Virus record (IMG/VR): IMGVR_UViG_3300029319_000047
Span: 1-59,705 of that record
Source: a virus
Reading direction: 5' to 3' (one strand)
DNA: 59,705 nucleotides
Below, piece after piece: positions 1,227 to 23,666 of this stretch. Under the pieces are notes generated by a model. The model was not told where the DNA came from and made no database searches. It worked only from the letters and a program-made list of their open reading frames with translations. Position numbers and translations under genes: made by a program. Numbering within the stretch: position 1 is the first letter of the stretch; every line of letters starts with the position of its first letter.

Positions 1227-2813
1227 TTATTTTCCTTTGAGTGTAGAGATGCCGTTCGCCTTAATCATAGTGAGGCTCTTGCTGTTATCCATTAAAGATT
1301 TAAGATAATTATTGTGCGTAATTACGAACAAACTCTTGTCTTTCTTTAGTTCGGATAGTAGTATGTAGAGACCTTCGAGACCTTCTTGGTCAAGATTCTC
1401 GGCAACTTCATCAAAAAACATAAGATTTGTCTTTTGATTGTTAGACATCTTGAGTAGCTCCTGCAATCCAAGCATTACGGCAAGGCTAATTTTCTTTTTC
1501 TCTCCACCTGACAGAGAGATGTATGCTATGTCTCTCTCGTTATGTGTGATAGTTTCTTTCAACTCTTCATCGAAAGTAATGAAGAACTTTCCCTGGGAGA
1601 GATGTGCCAGATAAAAGTTCACCTTTGAGTTGAAATACTTCAACACATTCCTAATGATATACTTTACAATGCCAGATTCAGAGAAAGCTTTTTCCCAAAA
1701 CTTCATGATGTCATACTGACTCATATAATGAGCCTTCTCATCATGATGTTGCTGAAGCTCAACTATAGTATCTTTCTTCAGACTCTGATAAGTCTCCGTC
1801 TCCTTTTTGAGGGTTCGGTATTCGTGAACTTTATAGTAATCGAACGAAGAGATCGGAGGGGTCTCGATGCTTTCTGAGATTGTGCGTACCTCTTTCTCTT
1901 TCTCCTTAATTTCCGATTGGACATCAGAGAGTTCCAGCATGAGACGCTTTGGGTGTATGTTATTGGGCAATGGCTGCCCACAAGACTTGCATTGTATAGT
2001 CGCATTTGGATTTTCTAAGCTCTTATTAATCTGTTTGTGTCTAGTATGTAGTGTCTCTAGCTGCTTGTTTATGTTCGCAATCTCATACTGTTTTGACTGA
2101 TTATTAGATTCTATCTTCAGGATATCTTGCAACTCGCATTCTAGAGCCTTAGAAACATTTGTCTTCTCAATCTGCTTCTTAAGTGAGGCAAGAGACTCAA
2201 GTTCTTTATCAAATTTTGATATAGTTTTTTCGCATTGAGAGATCAGTGTGCTTTGCTTTTTGATTTCAGAGTTAAAATCAGACTTAAGTTTTTTTACAGT
2301 ATCTCGCAAAGAAAATAGCTCATCAAGATTCAGAAAGTTCTTAATGATTGTGCGCTTATCATCTGGCGTAGCATTGATGAACTCAATATTGTTCTGCTGA
2401 CCGAACACTGTCGAGGCTAAAAATACCTTGTAGTTTGTGTGGAGGGTCTCCTCAATCAGCGCCTGAGTGTTTGTGGCGTTGTCCCTGGTAAGCTCCTTGT
2501 TCTTGTGAAAGAACTTGAGGAACACAGGTTTCTTGCCACGCTCGATGACATAATCATCATTGATTGTAATACGAACACGGCAACCTTTCTTAGCCTGATT
2601 GTTTACTAGGGCCTCTTCGGTAGACTTACGAATAGTCCTACCGAAGAGGCCCCACACAACAGCTTCAATCAAAGCACTCTTGCCTGAGCCGTTCGATCCA
2701 CCAGTATCTTTGTTCTTGCCCTCGATCAGGACAATACCTTTGTGTTTATCTAGCGAGAGCGTAACATCTTTGATGGAATAGAAGTTAGCGATTTCTACTT
2801 TGTTGATTTTCAT
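1227..2813 (-). CDS. 46: SbcC/Rad50-like recombination ATPase, T4 gp46 homologue
   Basis: Large subunit of the gp46/gp47 end-processing nuclease used in recombination-dependent replication and DNA repair. Domains in order: N-terminal ABC half with Walker A GSNGSGKS (about residue 38), a long coiled coil, a zinc hook CKSCGQ (about 274-279) at its apex, a second coiled coil, then the signature SLSGGEKKK (about 434), Walker B LMFFDEVAEN (about 461) and a VITHN switch. At 528 residues it is close to T4 gp46 and much shorter than bacterial SbcC. The start ATG lies inside gp47, overlapping it by 29 nt, which suggests translational coupling. The stop is 1 nt from the nrdJ start. Confidence 0.96.
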   Translation of the reverse strand: MKINKVEIANFYSIKDVTLSLDKHKGIVLIEGKNKDTGGSNGSGKSALIEAVVWGLFGRTIRKSTEEALVNNQAKKGCRVRITINDDYVIERGKKPVFLKFFHKNKELTRDNATNTQALIEETLHTNYKVFLASTVFGQQNNIEFINATPDDKRTIIKNFLNLDELFSLRDTVKKLKSDFNSEIKKQSTLISQCEKTISKFDKELESLASLKKQIEKTNVSKALECELQDILKIESNNQSKQYEIANINKQLETLHTRHKQINKSLENPNATIQCKSCGQPLPNNIHPKRLMLELSDVQSEIKEKEKEVRTISESIETPPISSFDYYKVHEYRTLKKETETYQSLKKDTIVELQQHHDEKAHYMSQYDIMKFWEKAFSESGIVKYIIRNVLKYFNSKVNFYLAHLSQGKFFITFDEELKETITHNERDIAYISLSGGEKKKISLAVMLGLQELLKMSNNQKTNLMFFDEVAENLDQEGLEGLYILLSELKKDKSLFVITHNNYLKSLMDNSKSLTMIKANGISTLKGK

Positions 2814-3789
2814 TAATCAGTTTCAGCCCATCTAGCAAATCCCCTTTGTTTATCTTGGTGTTGCTAGAATTTATATAGTGTTCAATTAAATCATCACTCA
2901 TTACAGAGGAGACAGATCGCTCATCAGGAACAAAAACTTCCTTATCATCCAGCAAAGGTTTGTACTTGACCTCAACGACAGGGGCTTTGATGCTCTGAGT
3001 TAGTTCAGCGATGTTTTTAATACCATCGTCCAAGGTTCCTACATTCACACGAATCATATTGTAGTCACCAGAGTTCAACCACTCTAGGTTGTCCTCTACC
3101 TTGTCATAGTCTATCACCAAATGTCTTGGTCCATATTCACATGATACTTTTTCTAGTCTAGTATCAGAGAGGACTCCGTAGTAGCAGTCTTTCCCTGCTT
3201 CTCCGAAGTTAGTGGTGTAGGGGGTTCCAAGGACTGAAACATTCCCGTTCCTACCTGCTTTGTGAATGTGCCCAAGGATTGTCGGATTCTTGAAATCGGA
3301 TACAGACAACTCAAAATCAGCGTCTCCAGCAGAATTAAGAACGCCATGATAACCAAAGTGGCCGAAAACAACATAGCCTTCGGGAACATTAGCAAGATAT
3401 TCTTTGATTCTTTCTTCGTCTTCATAGTGCGGGATGAATACCCATTTGTTTTTGTGATCTTCATGATACTCTGTATACACACGAATATTTTTATCTTTGA
3501 GCAGCGACAGTGCAGTAACACCATCATCTGCCTTTGTCACGCTATCATGGTTACCCCGAACAATATGAATCTTATATCCCAAGTAAGAGATGTCGGTCAT
3601 CAACTCTTTCAAAGCAAGCAGGACAGTGGGCTTTGGACTCCTGTGCATCATCAGATCCCCCAGGAATACTAGCTTGTCACAATCTCCGCAGCGATCTTTG
3701 CAAATTTGCATCACAGCATTAAACTGTGCTTGCAGCATACCACGAGGCTTATCCTCGAAGTGTAGGTCTCCAATTACGAGTGTTCGCAT
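2785..3789 (-). CDS. 47: SbcD/Mre11-like nuclease, T4 gp47 homologue
   Basis: Catalytic partner of gp46. The calcineurin-type phosphoesterase motifs are all visible in order: GDLHFE, LGDLMMH, RGNHD, FGHFGYHG and LGHIHK, giving the two-metal centre that cuts DNA ends. The frame can be extended to a TTG at 3801, but the ATG at 3789 gives the family-typical start MRTLVIGDLHF and has GGAAAG just upstream, so I choose it. It overlaps thyX upstream by 16 nt and gp46 downstream by 29 nt. T4 gp47 is about the same length (334 residues here). Confidence 0.95.
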   Translation of the reverse strand: MRTLVIGDLHFEDKPRGMLQAQFNAVMQICKDRCGDCDKLVFLGDLMMHRSPKPTVLLALKELMTDISYLGYKIHIVRGNHDSVTKADDGVTALSLLKDKNIRVYTEYHEDHKNKWVFIPHYEDEERIKEYLANVPEGYVVFGHFGYHGVLNSAGDADFELSVSDFKNPTILGHIHKAGRNGNVSVLGTPYTTNFGEAGKDCYYGVLSDTRLEKVSCEYGPRHLVIDYDKVEDNLEWLNSGDYNMIRVNVGTLDDGIKNIAELTQSIKAPVVEVKYKPLLDDKEVFVPDERSVSSVMSDDLIEHYINSSNTKINKGDLLDGLKLINENQQSRNR

Positions 3790-4424
3790 AATGCTTTCCA
3801 ACTGTGAGGGAACATCTCCTGCATCAGGAAACCAATCTCTTGAGCGTACTCCTGCGTCTCTAGCTGCGTGTGCTCTTCGGTCCTGAGCTTCCAGAGGTGA
3901 TGCCAGCCTAGAAGCGTTCCTGTGACCACACAGGTGGTGTACATGGACTGTGGCAGGATGGCACGAGCTTGCTCAGGAGCTACACCTTGGCGAAGCAGAA
4001 CATCGTATCTTTTCATGGCTTCTTCATTAGCTGCGTGGAACTGATTCCAGATGGCATCATAATCCTCTCCCCAGTCCTTACTCTCGCTGCCCTGCTTGAT
4101 ATTGTCTGGACGAGATCTAATATCTTCAGGCATCCAGAACTCAGGCTCACCAGTGATATATCGTCGGCTAACCTCACTCCAAGAAAAACCTACTTGGTGC
4201 TTACCCAACTGACGAAGCACGAAAATAGGGCAAGTGATGCGTAGAGTAGCCACAGGATGACGAAACGGTAGAACATGCTGCTCTCTTGCCAGATAGTTGA
4301 GAAGCTTTGCATCTTTCTCTTGATCAAATTCTTCATGCTGTTTATCGAACGAACATCTAGCTGCATTCACAACTAGTAGATCTCCTTTGGGGGTAAAGTT
4401 TAGAACATCAATATTTGTTTTCAT
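3774..4424 (-). CDS. thyX: Flavin-dependent thymidylate synthase ThyX
   Basis: Makes dTMP from dUMP using FAD and methylenetetrahydrofolate. The signature region reads RQLGKHQVGF followed by SWSEVSRRYI; the usual RHRxxSxNxxSxRY is thus present with K-H-Q in place of R-H-R and the Ser/Arg pair retained. This variant looks like the phage branch of the family. 216 residues is a normal ThyX length. The start ATG overlaps the polymerase stop in an ATGA arrangement, so it is translationally coupled to the palm gene. Together with nrdJ it gives the operon its own dNTP supply. Confidence 0.93.
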   Translation of the reverse strand: MKTNIDVLNFTPKGDLLVVNAARCSFDKQHEEFDQEKDAKLLNYLAREQHVLPFRHPVATLRITCPIFVLRQLGKHQVGFSWSEVSRRYITGEPEFWMPEDIRSRPDNIKQGSESKDWGEDYDAIWNQFHAANEEAMKRYDVLLRQGVAPEQARAILPQSMYTTCVVTGTLLGWHHLWKLRTEEHTQLETQEYAQEIGFLMQEMFPHSWKALCEHS

Positions 4425-5485
4425 AGATTGTATTCCTGTACATCTCCGAATGAAGTGCCCACCTCAATATCAATAGCAAGGGGAACATCAAAATGAATAT
4501 TGAATACCTCTTTGATGGTGGGATAGTTAACCATCTCATCATAGAGGATCTCCACGGTCTTCTGCACTTCTTCTCTCGGACAAATAATCTCGATAGAGTC
4601 GTGAACCGTGGCAACTGGCGTAGCTTCTAATCCTTCTTCCTTGAACCTGCGCGATGCTCCAAGCAGCGAGGTGAGTAGAATATCAGATGCGGAGCTTTGA
4701 ATCGTAAAGTTTAGTCCTTGCCTGAGTGCTCGATTTACGACTTGGCGATCACGGCTATAGACATCAGGAAGATTGCGCTTGCGGCCAAAAATAGTATAAG
4801 CATATCCGTTGCTCTTAATGAAGTTGTTCACATGGTCCATATATGCAAAGATGCCTGGATACACATTCTCGTAGTCTTTGATGATCTTCTCAGCACGCTT
4901 CATGGGGATGTTCATGGTCTCACTGAGATTGAATGCACCTCCACCATAAACGATCAGGAAGGATACAGCCTTGGCGATCTGTCGCTCCTCCTTGCTGATC
5001 TGCTCCTTGTTAAATAGAAGCTTGGCGGTGTAGGTGTGTAGGTCCGCGCCCTGATTGAAGGCTAGTTGCATATTACCCTCTTTGGCAATATGTGACAGGA
5101 CGCGGAGTTCCATCGCTGCATAGTCCGCAGCAATAAATGCCCAACCCTTGGGAGCAGCAAAGAGAGATCGAATGTTGTTCTCAGTCTCCCTGGGCAAGGT
5201 ATGGAAAGATACGCCCATGGCTTTCTGTGCATTGTATGCTGCACAGGACAGGCGACCTGTTGCCGTGCCATCGAAACGAAAATCACAGAACACCTTGTCC
5301 ATGCCATTGTATTCAATGGCTTTCTTGGTGCCCTCGATATAAGTCTTGGTCAGCTTCTCCGACTTGCGAAGATCAAGCAACCCTTTCACGAATTTTCTAG
5401 CATTACGCAGTTCGTCCGTAGACTTGTCTGCGATGACAGACTTGCTGATACGCTTGCCCTCATCCCTGTGCTTCCATTTACTCAC
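4421..5485 (-). CDS. polA (C-terminal part): Family A DNA polymerase, fingers/palm fragment
   Basis: Carries the polymerase active site and part of the thumb. Motif A is DYAAMELRVL with the catalytic Asp near residue 121. Motif B runs RQIAKAVSF then LIVYG (Arg168, Lys172, Phe176, Tyr180). Motif C is VHDSIEI (His295, Asp296); the usual Glu after Asp is Ser here, as in many phage enzymes. There is no exonuclease domain: that is encoded by the two upstream genes. The predicted start is a GTG eight bases inside the preceding gene, with AGGAG about 10 nt upstream. The break falls in the thumb, between the N-terminal half of the thumb (previous gene) and the DELRNARKFVKGL helices here. It should work as a complex with the other pieces (inference). 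Confidence 0.93.
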   Translation of the reverse strand: MSKWKHRDEGKRISKSVIADKSTDELRNARKFVKGLLDLRKSEKLTKTYIEGTKKAIEYNGMDKVFCDFRFDGTATGRLSCAAYNAQKAMGVSFHTLPRETENNIRSLFAAPKGWAFIAADYAAMELRVLSHIAKEGNMQLAFNQGADLHTYTAKLLFNKEQISKEERQIAKAVSFLIVYGGGAFNLSETMNIPMKRAEKIIKDYENVYPGIFAYMDHVNNFIKSNGYAYTIFGRKRNLPDVYSRDRQVVNRALRQGLNFTIQSSASDILLTSLLGASRRFKEEGLEATPVATVHDSIEIICPREEVQKTVEILYDEMVNYPTIKEVFNIHFDVPLAIDIEVGTSFGDVQEYNL

Positions 5486-5957
5486 GAGTCTGTAGCTCCT
5501 CTTCGATGTGCTCTAGCAGTAGTTTCAGTGTGGGTGCGGATACGGAAGGCTTGCCCTTCCCTGTACGGTCGGGGGGATAAAGGCCCATGCCCTCCTCACG
5601 CAGATAAAGAATCTCAATCAGATCGTTGTTTGACGAGAGGTTGTCAGTATTCTCTACGCCCTCACATAAGTAAAGAGAATCCTCTTCGTTCATGTTCTTG
5701 GAACGCAGTTGCCTACCGACAGCATCCAGCTTGTCCGTGTCCACGATCAGACCATTATACTCCATCTCCGCGAAGGTTTCAAGAGAGGGCATCACGACAT
5801 TCTCAATGAGAGTCATGACGGGATCGCCCTCAAACTTTTCCATGATAAGATCAAACAGCTTCAGAGTGAAGTAAGTATCCATCGCGTTGCCCTCACAGCA
5901 ATCGGATAGATCCATATTGGCCCAGTCAAACTTACTGGGGTTGTCAATCGTAAGCAT
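5478..5957 (-). CDS. Family A DNA polymerase, exo III/thumb middle fragment
   Basis: 159 residues that match the middle of a PolA protein: an exo III-like segment CCEGNAMDTYFTLKLF (Asp27), then the helices linking the exonuclease to the polymerase (PSLETFAEMEYNGLIVD), then thumb helices. The exo III Tyr/His expected four residues before the Asp is not obvious (a Gly sits there). Its ATG shares one base with the stop of the UDG-exo gene (TAATG), and its end overlaps the palm gene by 8 nt, so all three should be made in fixed proportion by coupling. Alone it has no complete active site. The -1 frame upstream is closed by TGA six codons before the ATG and has no slippery heptamer, so a frameshift fusion looks unlikely. 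Confidence 0.85.
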   Translation of the reverse strand: MLTIDNPSKFDWANMDLSDCCEGNAMDTYFTLKLFDLIMEKFEGDPVMTLIENVVMPSLETFAEMEYNGLIVDTDKLDAVGRQLRSKNMNEEDSLYLCEGVENTDNLSSNNDLIEILYLREEGMGLYPPDRTGKGKPSVSAPTLKLLLEHIEEELQTRE

Positions 5958-6979
5958 TACAGATCCTCTAGCTCATTGGCGAAGTAAAGTTTGGTGAGAT
6001 CCATCAGACCCTTGGGCATGTTCTCATCCAGGAGGTGGTGCATGATCTTGGTGTCCCAAACATTCTTAGTATAGATACCATAGTTGATGAGGAACTTGAG
6101 ATCAAACTTGGCATTATGAAAGACCTTCCTGCTCTTAGGATTCTCAAGAATCCGACGCAAACATCCCCACACCTTCGCATAGTCAGGCTGCCCTTTCCTG
6201 AACGGACTGTCCTTATGATCTAGCGGGATGACCCAAGTATTCTCTCGTGTGGTGAGAGCGATGGTCATAATGTCATCCTTGAGGAAGTTCAGTCCAGTGG
6301 TCTCAGTATCTACGGCAATCGTCGCTTCGGAATGCTGAAGCGTTTCTGCGAGAGCTTGTACCTCTCCGATCTCCATGAGGACTTCATAGGAGAAGTCTCC
6401 TCTAGCCTTCTGCCCAAGTACATATTTTTCATATGCATTTGAGATATCTGTCTTGAAGAGCGATAGGTGTCGGGGCTCCTTGATACAAGAATAGGGATGA
6501 AAAATAGGCACAACGGTGCAATTATGCCCAGAATTAGTAGTGTAGTCATAGGACTTTCCTCGTTTGTTTGTGATGCCGCTTTTCTTGATAAGCATCTTCA
6601 TTGCAAGGTTACCGCAAGCGAAAACAAGCTTGGGCTTTACCTTATCAATAGTTGCATCAAGATGCTGGCGGCACAAGTTCATGTTGTTCGGACTCATATC
6701 TGCCTCCTTAACAGAAGGACACTTGACCGAAGCAGCCATGACAAACTTCTCAGGATAACATTCCTTGAAAAGTTGAATCTCCGCTTTCGAGAATGCCTGT
6801 GTAGACCCAAGCTTATACTTAATTGAGTCCGATAAAAACAGGACAGGCGCTGGCGAAAGCTCCTCATAGTCCATCACCGAATGGCAAGGCTTGGACTTCT
6901 CCAGAATGGAGCAGCCATGACACAAAGGATTGTCACCATGGGCTTTGTGGCCTTGGTACAATTTGTCTAAATCAAACAT
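5957..6979 (-). CDS. UDG-like domain fused to 3'-5' exonuclease (exo I/II) of DNA polymerase
   Basis: Residues about 1-190 resemble family 4/5 uracil-DNA glycosylase: Cys20/Cys23 and Cys87/Cys103 match the 4Fe-4S ligand pattern, VKCPSVKEAD matches the Cys-Pro-Pro region, and FHPYSC (His161) matches the C-terminal HP motif. The GEAPG motif is replaced by FLSDSIKYKLG, so glycosylase activity is doubtful. Residues about 220-340 are a DEDD exonuclease: exo I VDTETTGL (Asp224, Glu226) and exo II FHNAKFDLKF (Asn289, Asp293). The protein ends just before exo III, which is in the next gene. A UDG-like N-terminus on a phage PolA is known from SPO1. It is first in the replication operon; its ATG lies 2 nt from the palindromic promoter at 6982-6990. 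Confidence 0.88.
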   Translation of the reverse strand: MFDLDKLYQGHKAHGDNPLCHGCSILEKSKPCHSVMDYEELSPAPVLFLSDSIKYKLGSTQAFSKAEIQLFKECYPEKFVMAASVKCPSVKEADMSPNNMNLCRQHLDATIDKVKPKLVFACGNLAMKMLIKKSGITNKRGKSYDYTTNSGHNCTVVPIFHPYSCIKEPRHLSLFKTDISNAYEKYVLGQKARGDFSYEVLMEIGEVQALAETLQHSEATIAVDTETTGLNFLKDDIMTIALTTRENTWVIPLDHKDSPFRKGQPDYAKVWGCLRRILENPKSRKVFHNAKFDLKFLINYGIYTKNVWDTKIMHHLLDENMPKGLMDLTKLYFANELEDL

Positions 6980-6993: not shown

Positions 6994-7335
6994 GTGAAGA
7001 AACATTATATAGATAACACGAAATTCGAAGAGATCATCCTATCATACCAGGAGGATCCTGAAAGCCATGAAGAAGAGCTTGTTTCTTTATTTGATGTCTT
7101 AATACAGAACATCATCGAGACCTTCAAGTTTAATGTAGATCCCGATGACGCGAAGCAAGAGTGTTTCACACTAGTGCTTAGAACTGTTAAGAATTTCAAA
7201 CCAAGAAAAGGCTCGGCGTTCAACTATTTTACAACAGTGATCATAAATAATCTCAAGCTGTTGTATACTCGTGAGAAGAAGTACAATAAGAAGATCGAAA
7301 ATTACATCGACCTTCACAAAGACGATATCATCTAG
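6994..7335 (+). CDS. 55: gp55-like late sigma factor
   Basis: 113-residue protein resembling region 2 of T4 gp55, the sigma factor that reads late promoters. Seen: PDDAKQECFTLVLRTVKNF followed by PRKGSAFNYFTTVIINNL and a basic helix YTREKKYNKKIENYI. This matches the gp55 layout (helix, 'FNYFTTVIINNL' core helix, Arg/Lys-rich helix). T4 gp55 is about 185 residues, so this is a minimal form. The start is GTG, only 3 nt after the palindromic element; no other plausible start codon follows near the N-terminus. It probably controls the TATAATA-like promoters in this window, including its own. Its 3' end overlaps the convergent thioredoxin-like gene by 8 nt. Confidence 0.8.
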   Translation: MKKHYIDNTKFEEIILSYQEDPESHEEELVSLFDVLIQNIIETFKFNVDPDDAKQECFTLVLRTVKNFKPRKGSAFNYFTTVIINNLKLLYTREKKYNKKIENYIDLHKDDII

Positions 7336-22247: not shown

Positions 22248-23666
22248 TTAGATAAGGTCAAAAGCCTCAGCAAGGCGAAGACCAATCATTTTGTAAGCGG
22301 TTGCTTCAGGGACTCCTGCTCCAAAGGTTCCCTTGGGTCTAACCTTTGTGGGCTTGGGTGCTTCCTCTGCTGGCTTGTCTGAAGATGCAGCAGCTAGACG
22401 GGCACTAACATTCGCTTTTTTTCTATCTGCAATGTTACTTTGGGAGGTTCTACGAGCCTGAGCCTTACGGACCGCTCCAGTGCCAGCATCTTTTGCAGCC
22501 TGTGAAAGCTTTTCAGCCCCTCTAACAATCTTGCCAGGAGCGGCAGCAAGACCCTTACCAATTTTACCAGCACCAGCAGCGACTTTTTCACCAGTTGTTA
22601 CGGGCTTACCCTCAGCGGCAGCCGCCTTGGCTTTGTCCATCTTGCGGGCTAGTTTAATCTGACCCTTTTGTCTAATAGCAGCGGCTTTTACATCAGCCTT
22701 GGCCGCCGATTTTCTACCAGCAGCATCCCTGCGACGATCCATGAAGCTGGGGCCACCCGCCTTTACTCCTCCACCAGCAGTGCCTTGATCTACTTTTGTT
22801 TTGTCTACTTCATCAGCGAAAGCCTCTGCAAGGGCATTAGCAATCTGATGCCAACTACCCTCTTCCTTAACGGCTTTCATAGCCTTACCTTTTTTGCCCA
22901 TAGCTTTGGCGATGGCCTTTCTACGATTCATAAGGTACTTGTCGCTGGAATCAGTGTCGCCGTCATTATCAATATCAGCATCCCCCTGACCAACGGGATC
23001 CATTCCATCGCCATCATCAGTAGGCCCAGAGTCTTTTTTCTTCTTTGCTTCTTCAATCCAAGGATCATAGGCTTCACGCAGTTTAGACCGAAGCATTACT
23101 AGAAAATTAGATTCTTTCTCAAGTTTACTTTGGCTTTCTCTTGCAAACTGCGACTGAGTAGACTCAGAGAGACCTGGGAATGCACCACGGGTCGAGGGGT
23201 CAGCAACAAGATCGAAGGTGACTAGGCGGAAATCTTCGTTAACAATCTTATTACCTTTAGCATCTTCTGACAGAGTGCCCATGCCACGGGATGAGATACC
23301 GATCTTTACACCGCCCTCTACGAGAGCTTTGGCAGTCAGGCCAGCGGGAGTCTTGAGGATCTCAGCCTCTCCAATAAGTTCGTCCCCCTTCATCTCAAGC
23401 TTAGTGATTAAGTGAGATGCGTTGGAAAGCTTTACGGTGTCATTTTGTGGGTGATCGAGTTCACCGCATAGACGCCGCTCAGAGATGAGGGGCTGAACCT
23501 TTTGTAGTTGACCTTCAAGAACATTGGTAGGATAAATTCTACCGTTGTTGTTCTTTTCGTTACACCGTCCGAAGACACCCTTAATCTTCATGGTGTCACT
23601 ATTCTTACCCTCGGTAAGAATTTGAAGGTTTTCTACGATAAATACATCTTGGAGTAGCTGTGTCAT
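22248..23666 (-). CDS. 21: Prohead maturation protease (T4 gp21-like) with calcium-loop and basic tail
   Basis: 472 residues, about twice T4 gp21 (212). Protease domain about 1-175: GRIYPTNVLEGQL, GELDHPQ with catalytic His near 72, and GISSRGMG with Ser near 123-124. The extension begins with a DxDxDG loop DIDNDGDTDSSD (about 231-242), dockerin or EF-hand like, followed by KYLMNRRKAI. Then SWHQIANALAEAFADE, a Lys/Ala tract like histone H1 (about 290-440), and a final ATAYKMIGLRLAEAFDLI. The two helices end in LAE|A, the expected cleavage site of this same protease. It may therefore cut itself and release basic peptides into the head (inference). ATGA overlap with the upstream gene. Confidence 0.9.
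   Translation of the reverse strand: MTQLLQDVFIVENLQILTEGKNSDTMKIKGVFGRCNEKNNNGRIYPTNVLEGQLQKVQPLISERRLCGELDHPQNDTVKLSNASHLITKLEMKGDELIGEAEILKTPAGLTAKALVEGGVKIGISSRGMGTLSEDAKGNKIVNEDFRLVTFDLVADPSTRGAFPGLSESTQSQFARESQSKLEKESNFLVMLRSKLREAYDPWIEEAKKKKDSGPTDDGDGMDPVGQGDADIDNDGDTDSSDKYLMNRRKAIAKAMGKKGKAMKAVKEEGSWHQIANALAEAFADEVDKTKVDQGTAGGGVKAGGPSFMDRRRDAAGRKSAAKADVKAAAIRQKGQIKLARKMDKAKAAAAEGKPVTTGEKVAAGAGKIGKGLAAAPGKIVRGAEKLSQAAKDAGTGAVRKAQARRTSQSNIADRKKANVSARLAAASSDKPAEEAPKPTKVRPKGTFGAGVPEATAYKMIGLRLAEAFDLI

Follow-up and report, generated by a model that had tools for sequence, protein, structure and literature searches.

Three consecutive phage genes that together appear to encode one family A DNA polymerase

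Phage DNA polymerases split between genes are already known, and two-part forms of the family A enzyme are among them. We describe here three consecutive genes on the reverse strand (positions 4421-6979) of IMG/VR virus record IMGVR_UViG_3300029319_000047, a 59,705-base virus contig that was analysed over its full length and is called the window below, and we compare them with the closest described systems. In Aeromonas phages 25 and 44RR, the T4-like replicative polymerase is encoded in separate genes, as gp43A and gp43B, and the two chains of phage 25 co-purify and polymerise, as stated in the passages of PMC2988022 used here. However, that enzyme belongs to family B, has two parts, and has a homing endonuclease or intercistronic untranslated sequence at the split. 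The T4-related Rhodothermus phage RM378 likewise has its exonuclease and polymerase domains on separate genes. An earlier note on this DNA had cited RM378 as a two-part PolA, but its polymerase is of family B, cut between domains and placed at two sites about 57 kb apart: a family B polymerase domain was matched at 79977-81137 and a family B exonuclease (p024, PF03104) some 57 kb away, and the RM378 record gave no family A match. RM378 was also considered as a hidden three-part case and rejected, since p025 overlaps p024 but has no Pfam match, and p024 is a family B exonuclease.

A two-part family A enzyme is instead reported in OM43 phages MEP401 and MEP402, in which the polymerase lies in separate open reading frames (ORFs) with a small ORF between them; these phages differ in having two parts, a cut within the polymerase domain and a whole exonuclease, and their authors consider an intron possible (passages of PMC10580990). 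Jumbo phages have a split minimal DNA polymerase III with a catalytic module spread over two proteins that are thought to reassemble, but this enzyme is of family C, is encoded by two distant genes and stands beside a family B enzyme (passages of PMC7824862). Aeh1 NrdA, a ribonucleotide reductase, is a phage enzyme that is cut inside a functional region and is still active, although it is a different enzyme and was split by a homing endonuclease gene, of which none was recognised here (passages of PMC2988022). The domain order of the present locus, in one chain, occurs in the one-piece enzyme of phage PaBG, which joins uracil-DNA glycosylase (UDG), exonuclease and PolA and is likened here by its description in part of PMC7412058, and in three relatives found in this work (L374-L376). 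A three-part PolA was not found in the open-licence PubMed Central (PMC) literature on split polymerases, nor in the passages used of PMC11348598, PMC6302109, PMC7689252, PMC4360716, PMC7824862 and PMC9599517.

The three genes and the divided exonuclease fold

Judged from their sequences, the three genes encode, piece by piece and in order, a single family A DNA polymerase that carries a UDG-like domain at its N-terminus. Part 1 (5957-6979, reverse strand; 340 amino acids, aa) holds a family-4 UDG-like domain (about residues 44-186) and an exonuclease fold with exo I and exo II, and part 2 (5478-5957, reverse strand; 159 aa) has the final exonuclease helix, which bears D27, together with some of the thumb. 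Part 3 (4421-5485, reverse strand; 354 aa, GTG start) supplies the rest of the thumb, the fingers and the palm, with residues D121, R168, K172, Y180, H295 and D296. At the first junction (TAATG, 5955-5959, reverse strand) the stop codon of part 1 and the start codon of part 2 share one base, and AGAGGA lies 6 nucleotides (nt) before the ATG. At the second (GTGAGTAA, 5478-5485, reverse strand) the start of part 3 and the stop of part 2 overlap by 8 nt, and AGAGGAG lies 10 nt before the GTG. Pfam recognised UDG (PF03167, E 1.4e-7) and DNA_pol_A_exo1 (PF01612, E 3.4e-22) in part 1 and DNA_pol_A (PF00476, E 5.9e-80) in part 3, and part 2 had no Pfam match at E 0.1. The three parts tiled PHROG_17 in order and without overlap (539-785, 797-927 and 931-1237). 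Reading frames and profiles therefore bear out the earlier description of three coupled genes in order, joined by TAATG and an 8-nt overlap.

Profiles of parts 1, 2 and 3 matched residues 7-136, 161-292 and 300-594 of the Klenow chain, so that the first cut separates exo II from exo III and the second falls in the thumb; by extrapolation, the former would lie at about Klenow 472-475. The claim that the first break falls inside the exonuclease fold, parting exo I and exo II from exo III, was thus upheld by the Klenow alignment. A fold search with the predicted structure of part 1 (mean predicted local distance difference test score, pLDDT, 75.5) found both UDG and Klenow folds.

If residue 1 of the Klenow chain is Klenow 324, as we assume, D27 of part 2 corresponds to D501 and G23 to Y497. 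The acids aligned to the exonuclease metal ligands (Klenow D355, E357, D424 and D501) are then distributed over two chains, with exo I (D224, E226) and exo II (D293) in part 1 and the exo III aspartate in part 2, and the polymerase motifs are in part 3. Conservation was counted in 54 three-part and 7 two-part rows (61 split rows), and in 5 one-part rows. D224 and E226 are present in 53 of 54 three-part rows (the remaining row has a gap), D293 and D27 in 54 of 54, and each of the four acids in all 7 two-part rows; the polymerase residues D121 and D296 (motifs A and C) and R168, K172 and Y180 (O-helix) are kept in 54/54 and 7/7. A family A polymerase with a 3'-5' exonuclease is defined as one polypeptide, and here three genes were found in its place.

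Compared with solved structures, the UDG-like domain of part 1 matches the family-4 UDG 4zbx (E 2.3e-14), and the fold match is to 4zby/4zbx. C20, C23, C87 and C103 are kept in 52 of the 54 three-part rows (the other two have gaps) and in none of the 7 two-part rows, and their spacing is what we take to be the iron-sulfur cluster pattern of family-4 UDG. Motif A reads S-D-S-L where 4zbx has G-E-A-P, so that the GEAPG motif of family 4 is absent, and its acid is kept in 51 of 54 rows (D in 45, E in 6). The proposal of an N-terminal UDG-like domain therefore stands with respect to the family-4 fold and the cysteines, but glycosylase activity is doubtful because motif A is altered (S-D-S where family 4 has G-E-A), and the domain may cut, may only bind, or may do neither.

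Relatives in one, two and three parts and a proposed order of the cuts

A first scan with part 3 gave 68 loci. Alignment scans provided the best 80 of 337 matches for part 3, the best 80 of at least 289 for part 1 and the best 80 of 166 for part 2; two wider scans provided the best 80 of 343 and the best 80 of at least 180, with weaker relatives lying beyond these, and a further scan covered bacterial genomes. A set of 258 loci among the matches listed comprised 228 with all three parts in view and 30 without one part, and both cuts were kept in 227 of the 228, many of these loci sharing contigs. The full set of 402 loci, again among the matches listed, comprised 317 three-part, 29 one-part and 10 two-part loci, and 46 left unclassed because a part was not found. 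The search of relatives that had been suggested for deciding between one-, two- and three-part forms thus recovered all three. Because many loci come from the same contigs, they were clustered: the 313 loci with a near-complete part 3 fell into 73 clusters at 85% identity, 54 of them three-part, 12 one-part and 7 two-part. One three-part cluster, L031, has a damaged part 2, and it was left out of the tree, the residue conservation, the gap counts and the counts of part-1 ends.

In the first set of relatives, every part 2 begins with ATG and runs into part 3 with an overlap that is usually 8 nt long (L031 and L065 being exceptions). Eight of the ten two-part loci have the cut exonuclease and fused parts 2 and 3; L175 and L341 make up the ten. 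The one-part relatives are distant, with 22-38% identity to part 1 of the relative L182 (28-30% for the one-piece L374-L376). A search for annotated phages with at least 60% identity found none, the window's own genome aside, whether the query was part 3 of the window, a fused two-part protein or a distant part 3. Two polymerase ORFs were noted in BSP7. Two candidates for further forms were rejected: L065 (IMGVR_UViG_3300045125_000023) as a fusion of parts 1 and 2, its contig being broken in many frames, likely by read errors, and L031 (the same as L126) as a four-part form, a damaged part 2 being more likely.

A tree of part 3 was built with 73 rows (72 clusters, without L031, and the window). 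The three-part rows formed one clade (support 97/82), the two-part rows another (100/100), and the two clades grouped together (98/93), so that the number of parts required 2 changes on this tree, as against an average of 18.0 with shuffled labels. With the one-part rows as outgroup, the preferred series would run from an intact gene to the exonuclease cut and then to the thumb cut. Parsimony is equal (also 2 changes) for a thumb cut that came first and was re-fused in the two-part clade; we prefer the thumb cut as the second event because the fused proteins are without the extra residues of the three-part junction.

Probable separate subunits and the alternatives

We consider it very probable that the three genes are genuine and are translated separately, into subunits of a single family A replicase that assemble non-covalently and arose by gene fission. 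An ancestral one-piece gene for the UDG-like, exonuclease and polymerase domains would first have been divided between exo II and exo III, and one branch would later have acquired a second cut, in the thumb. Part 1, which carries most of the 3'-5' exonuclease along with the UDG-like domain, would then join parts 2 and 3 without a covalent link, and D224, E226 and D293 from part 1 would form a composite proofreading site with D27 from part 2. Such a system would offer an evolutionary series in which a core replication enzyme is encoded by one, two or three genes, and its active site would have stayed divided between two chains across a wide phage group. It makes testable how a polymerase divides, how its fission is fixed and whether proofreading becomes a separable subunit that can be dosed, and the natural cut points may aid the design of split polymerases for biotechnology.

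At the exonuclease cut, the parts contribute some 22 residues in all against 24 in Klenow, and because these numbers are about equal we regard it as a plain cut. At the thumb cut, three-part enzymes have about 33 more residues than the fused two-part proteins, as counted by eye. The extension of part 2 is a longer C-terminal helix (E154 in 53 of 54 rows, R158 in 50 of 54), and the N-terminal tail of part 3 has W4, R7 and E9 in 41 of 54 rows and K11 in 50 of 54. We propose that this helix and tail, the extra residues of the thumb cut, would serve as a docking element between the chains.

Several observations weigh against this reading or against steps in it. Broken frames occur in 3 of the 227 loci that keep both cuts (L031, L126 and L065), and the two-part loci L175 and L341 are one contig, placed in the three-part group, whose fusion of parts 2 and 3 runs off the contig end. 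The tree is less securely rooted because the one-part rows have long branches, and joins of such rows may be false. Distances of the parts correlate with one another (0.86-0.91) as expected of any linked genes, and where an antisense insert separates parts 1 and 2, inspection by eye shows no obvious ribosome site ahead of part 2. Part 2 alone gave a poor AlphaFold model (mean pLDDT 42; predicted template modelling score, pTM, 0.22), as would be expected of a chain that needs the complex in order to fold, but also of a shallow alignment of 20. In addition, the exo III tyrosine (Klenow Y497) is a glycine in 54/54 three-part and 7/7 two-part rows, and because of this substitution proofreading may be weaker than that of Klenow. 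The five one-part rows have one Y, one R and three gaps at this position, so that only two are readable; in the window the glycine is G23 of part 2, at 5889-5891.

The alternative that survives best, although we think it unlikely, is that the parts no longer make up one enzyme, with part 3 polymerising alone and part 1 acting as a separate or inactive exonuclease or as a UDG-like DNA-binding protein. This would suit the glycine at exo III, the altered motif A of the UDG-like domain and the frequent separation of parts 1 and 2. However, part 2 has no domain match of its own, yet is under purifying selection like the other parts, and D27 is kept in all 61 split rows, even though homology would have it act only beside the ligands of part 1. 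The median ratios of nonsynonymous to synonymous substitution rates (dN/dS) were 0.046 (0.010-0.114), 0.021 (0.009-0.098) and 0.054 (0.010-0.059) for the three parts, in a small sample of 6, 9 and 9 of 528 pairs, those with dS of 0.1-1.0. The window and nine other long records (73-131 kb), ten in all and of unstated completeness, were searched with three polymerase Pfam models, and each had one PF00476 match and none to PF00136 or PF07733. PF01612 was found in all ten, and in G003 at both record ends.

A good deal less probable still is a single polypeptide in which the parts end up linked, whether through programmed frameshifting or ribosome bypass or through an intron or a split intein, even though the parts overlap in different frames in the window and introns are common in phage DNA polymerase genes elsewhere (according to part of PMC11878797). 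In the window the frame of part 2 is open for only 15 nt upstream of its ATG, where a TGA closes it, and that of part 3 for 27 nt; no XXXYYYZ heptamer lies in either open stretch, in agreement with the earlier note's statement that no slippery site joins the first two frames. Parts 1 and 2 abut or overlap in 33 of 53 three-part representatives and have other reading frames between them (gap 1) in 20, the longest being antisense in 13 and sense in 7. The coupling that had been proposed thus applies to the window and does not extend to the group, and because whole reading frames lie between the parts there is little room for frameshifting, bypass, an intron or an intein. The part-1 profile reaches the last residue in 45 of 53 representatives, and the other 8 have 1-4 residues more, which leaves an intein no room. 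No Rfam match at gathering scores was obtained in the window or in 18 loci, and none of the six gap-1 proteins given to Pfam had a match, homing endonucleases included, most gap genes lying outside this test. Cuts made by homing endonucleases or introns would be expected to bear an endonuclease gene or a group I intron, and neither was recognised at a cut in these searches.

Genes also lie between other parts. The relative L178 has a gene between parts 2 and 3 that is weakly like dNMP/nucleotide or phosphomevalonate kinases (below both Pfam cut-offs), and L176 and L177 have the same 525-nt gap at this place. In two-part relatives up to 3.7 kb separates the parts, with genes that resemble, by eye, thyX and glutamine synthetase. 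A 91-aa gene occupies gap 1 in four lineages (L036:5253-5528, L045:972-1247, L053:5253-5528 and L180:7008-7283). It is 88-97% identical between them, whereas their parts 2 and 3 are only 42-69% and 59-75% identical, which points either to exchange at a fixed spot or to unusually slow change. Five gap genes were each found only in gap 1 wherever both flanks were seen, in a search of the loci around the polymerase and the window, and the exonuclease cut may be a landing place for genes. In L012, L013, L032 and others with an antisense insert, TATATAG and two further bases stand directly before part 2, as noted by eye, and this motif might serve the antisense gene as a late promoter. A wider version of the subunit model, in which a three-chain replicase with a shared proofreading site has gained a new docking element, keeps its exonuclease cut open for cargo genes and has its proofreading set by the dose or timing of part 1, is possible but, taken as a whole, doubtful.

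That the cuts reflect chance, an error in sequencing or assembly, or the decay of a polymerase gene is scarcely credible and, because the cuts are conserved in relatives, is excluded for the group as a whole: the window is a metagenomic contig and some related contigs (L065, L031) have broken frames, but the same two cuts occur in 54 clusters at 85% identity (L031 with its damaged part 2), dN/dS is low, the catalytic residues are kept and no replacement polymerase was recognised by the three Pfam models in the ten long records. The related case, that relatives carry an intact gene and the gene of the window is non-functional, fails because the one-part relatives are distant (22-38%) and the parts of the window are conserved.

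Gene neighbourhood and source of the window

The window derives from a T4-like myophage, with a gp23-type capsid, sheath, head-tail adaptor, primase and helicase; the T4-like hallmarks (gp23-type capsid, sheath, gp46/47) matched PHROG_138, PHROG_23 and PHROG_77/100. The gp23-type capsid was matched in 5 of 13 records searched: the two-part G010 and G014, the one-part G022 and two three-part records. Part 3 is followed on the reverse strand by thyX (3774-4424), which runs in the same direction and shares 4 nt with the end of part 3, then by genes for an SbcD/gp47-like nuclease subunit (2785-3801) and an SbcC/gp46-like ATPase (1227-2813), both matched by Pfam and PHROG.

The scan of bacterial genomes yielded one relative (L404) in QCKN01000003.1, a 130,604-base record titled Prochlorococcus sp. 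AG-409-P03 that is presumably a single-cell genome. This hints at a host and a sea habitat, although a co-sorted particle may explain it.

A small divergent gene (6994-7335, forward strand) adjoins part 1 and has a weak match, below the cut-off, to sigma-70 region 2; small genes that resemble it by eye stand at the same place in L172, L175 and L178. Elsewhere in the window, a 472-aa gene product (22248-23666, reverse strand) matches a head maturation protease over residues 21-199 and other small families over residues 200-285.

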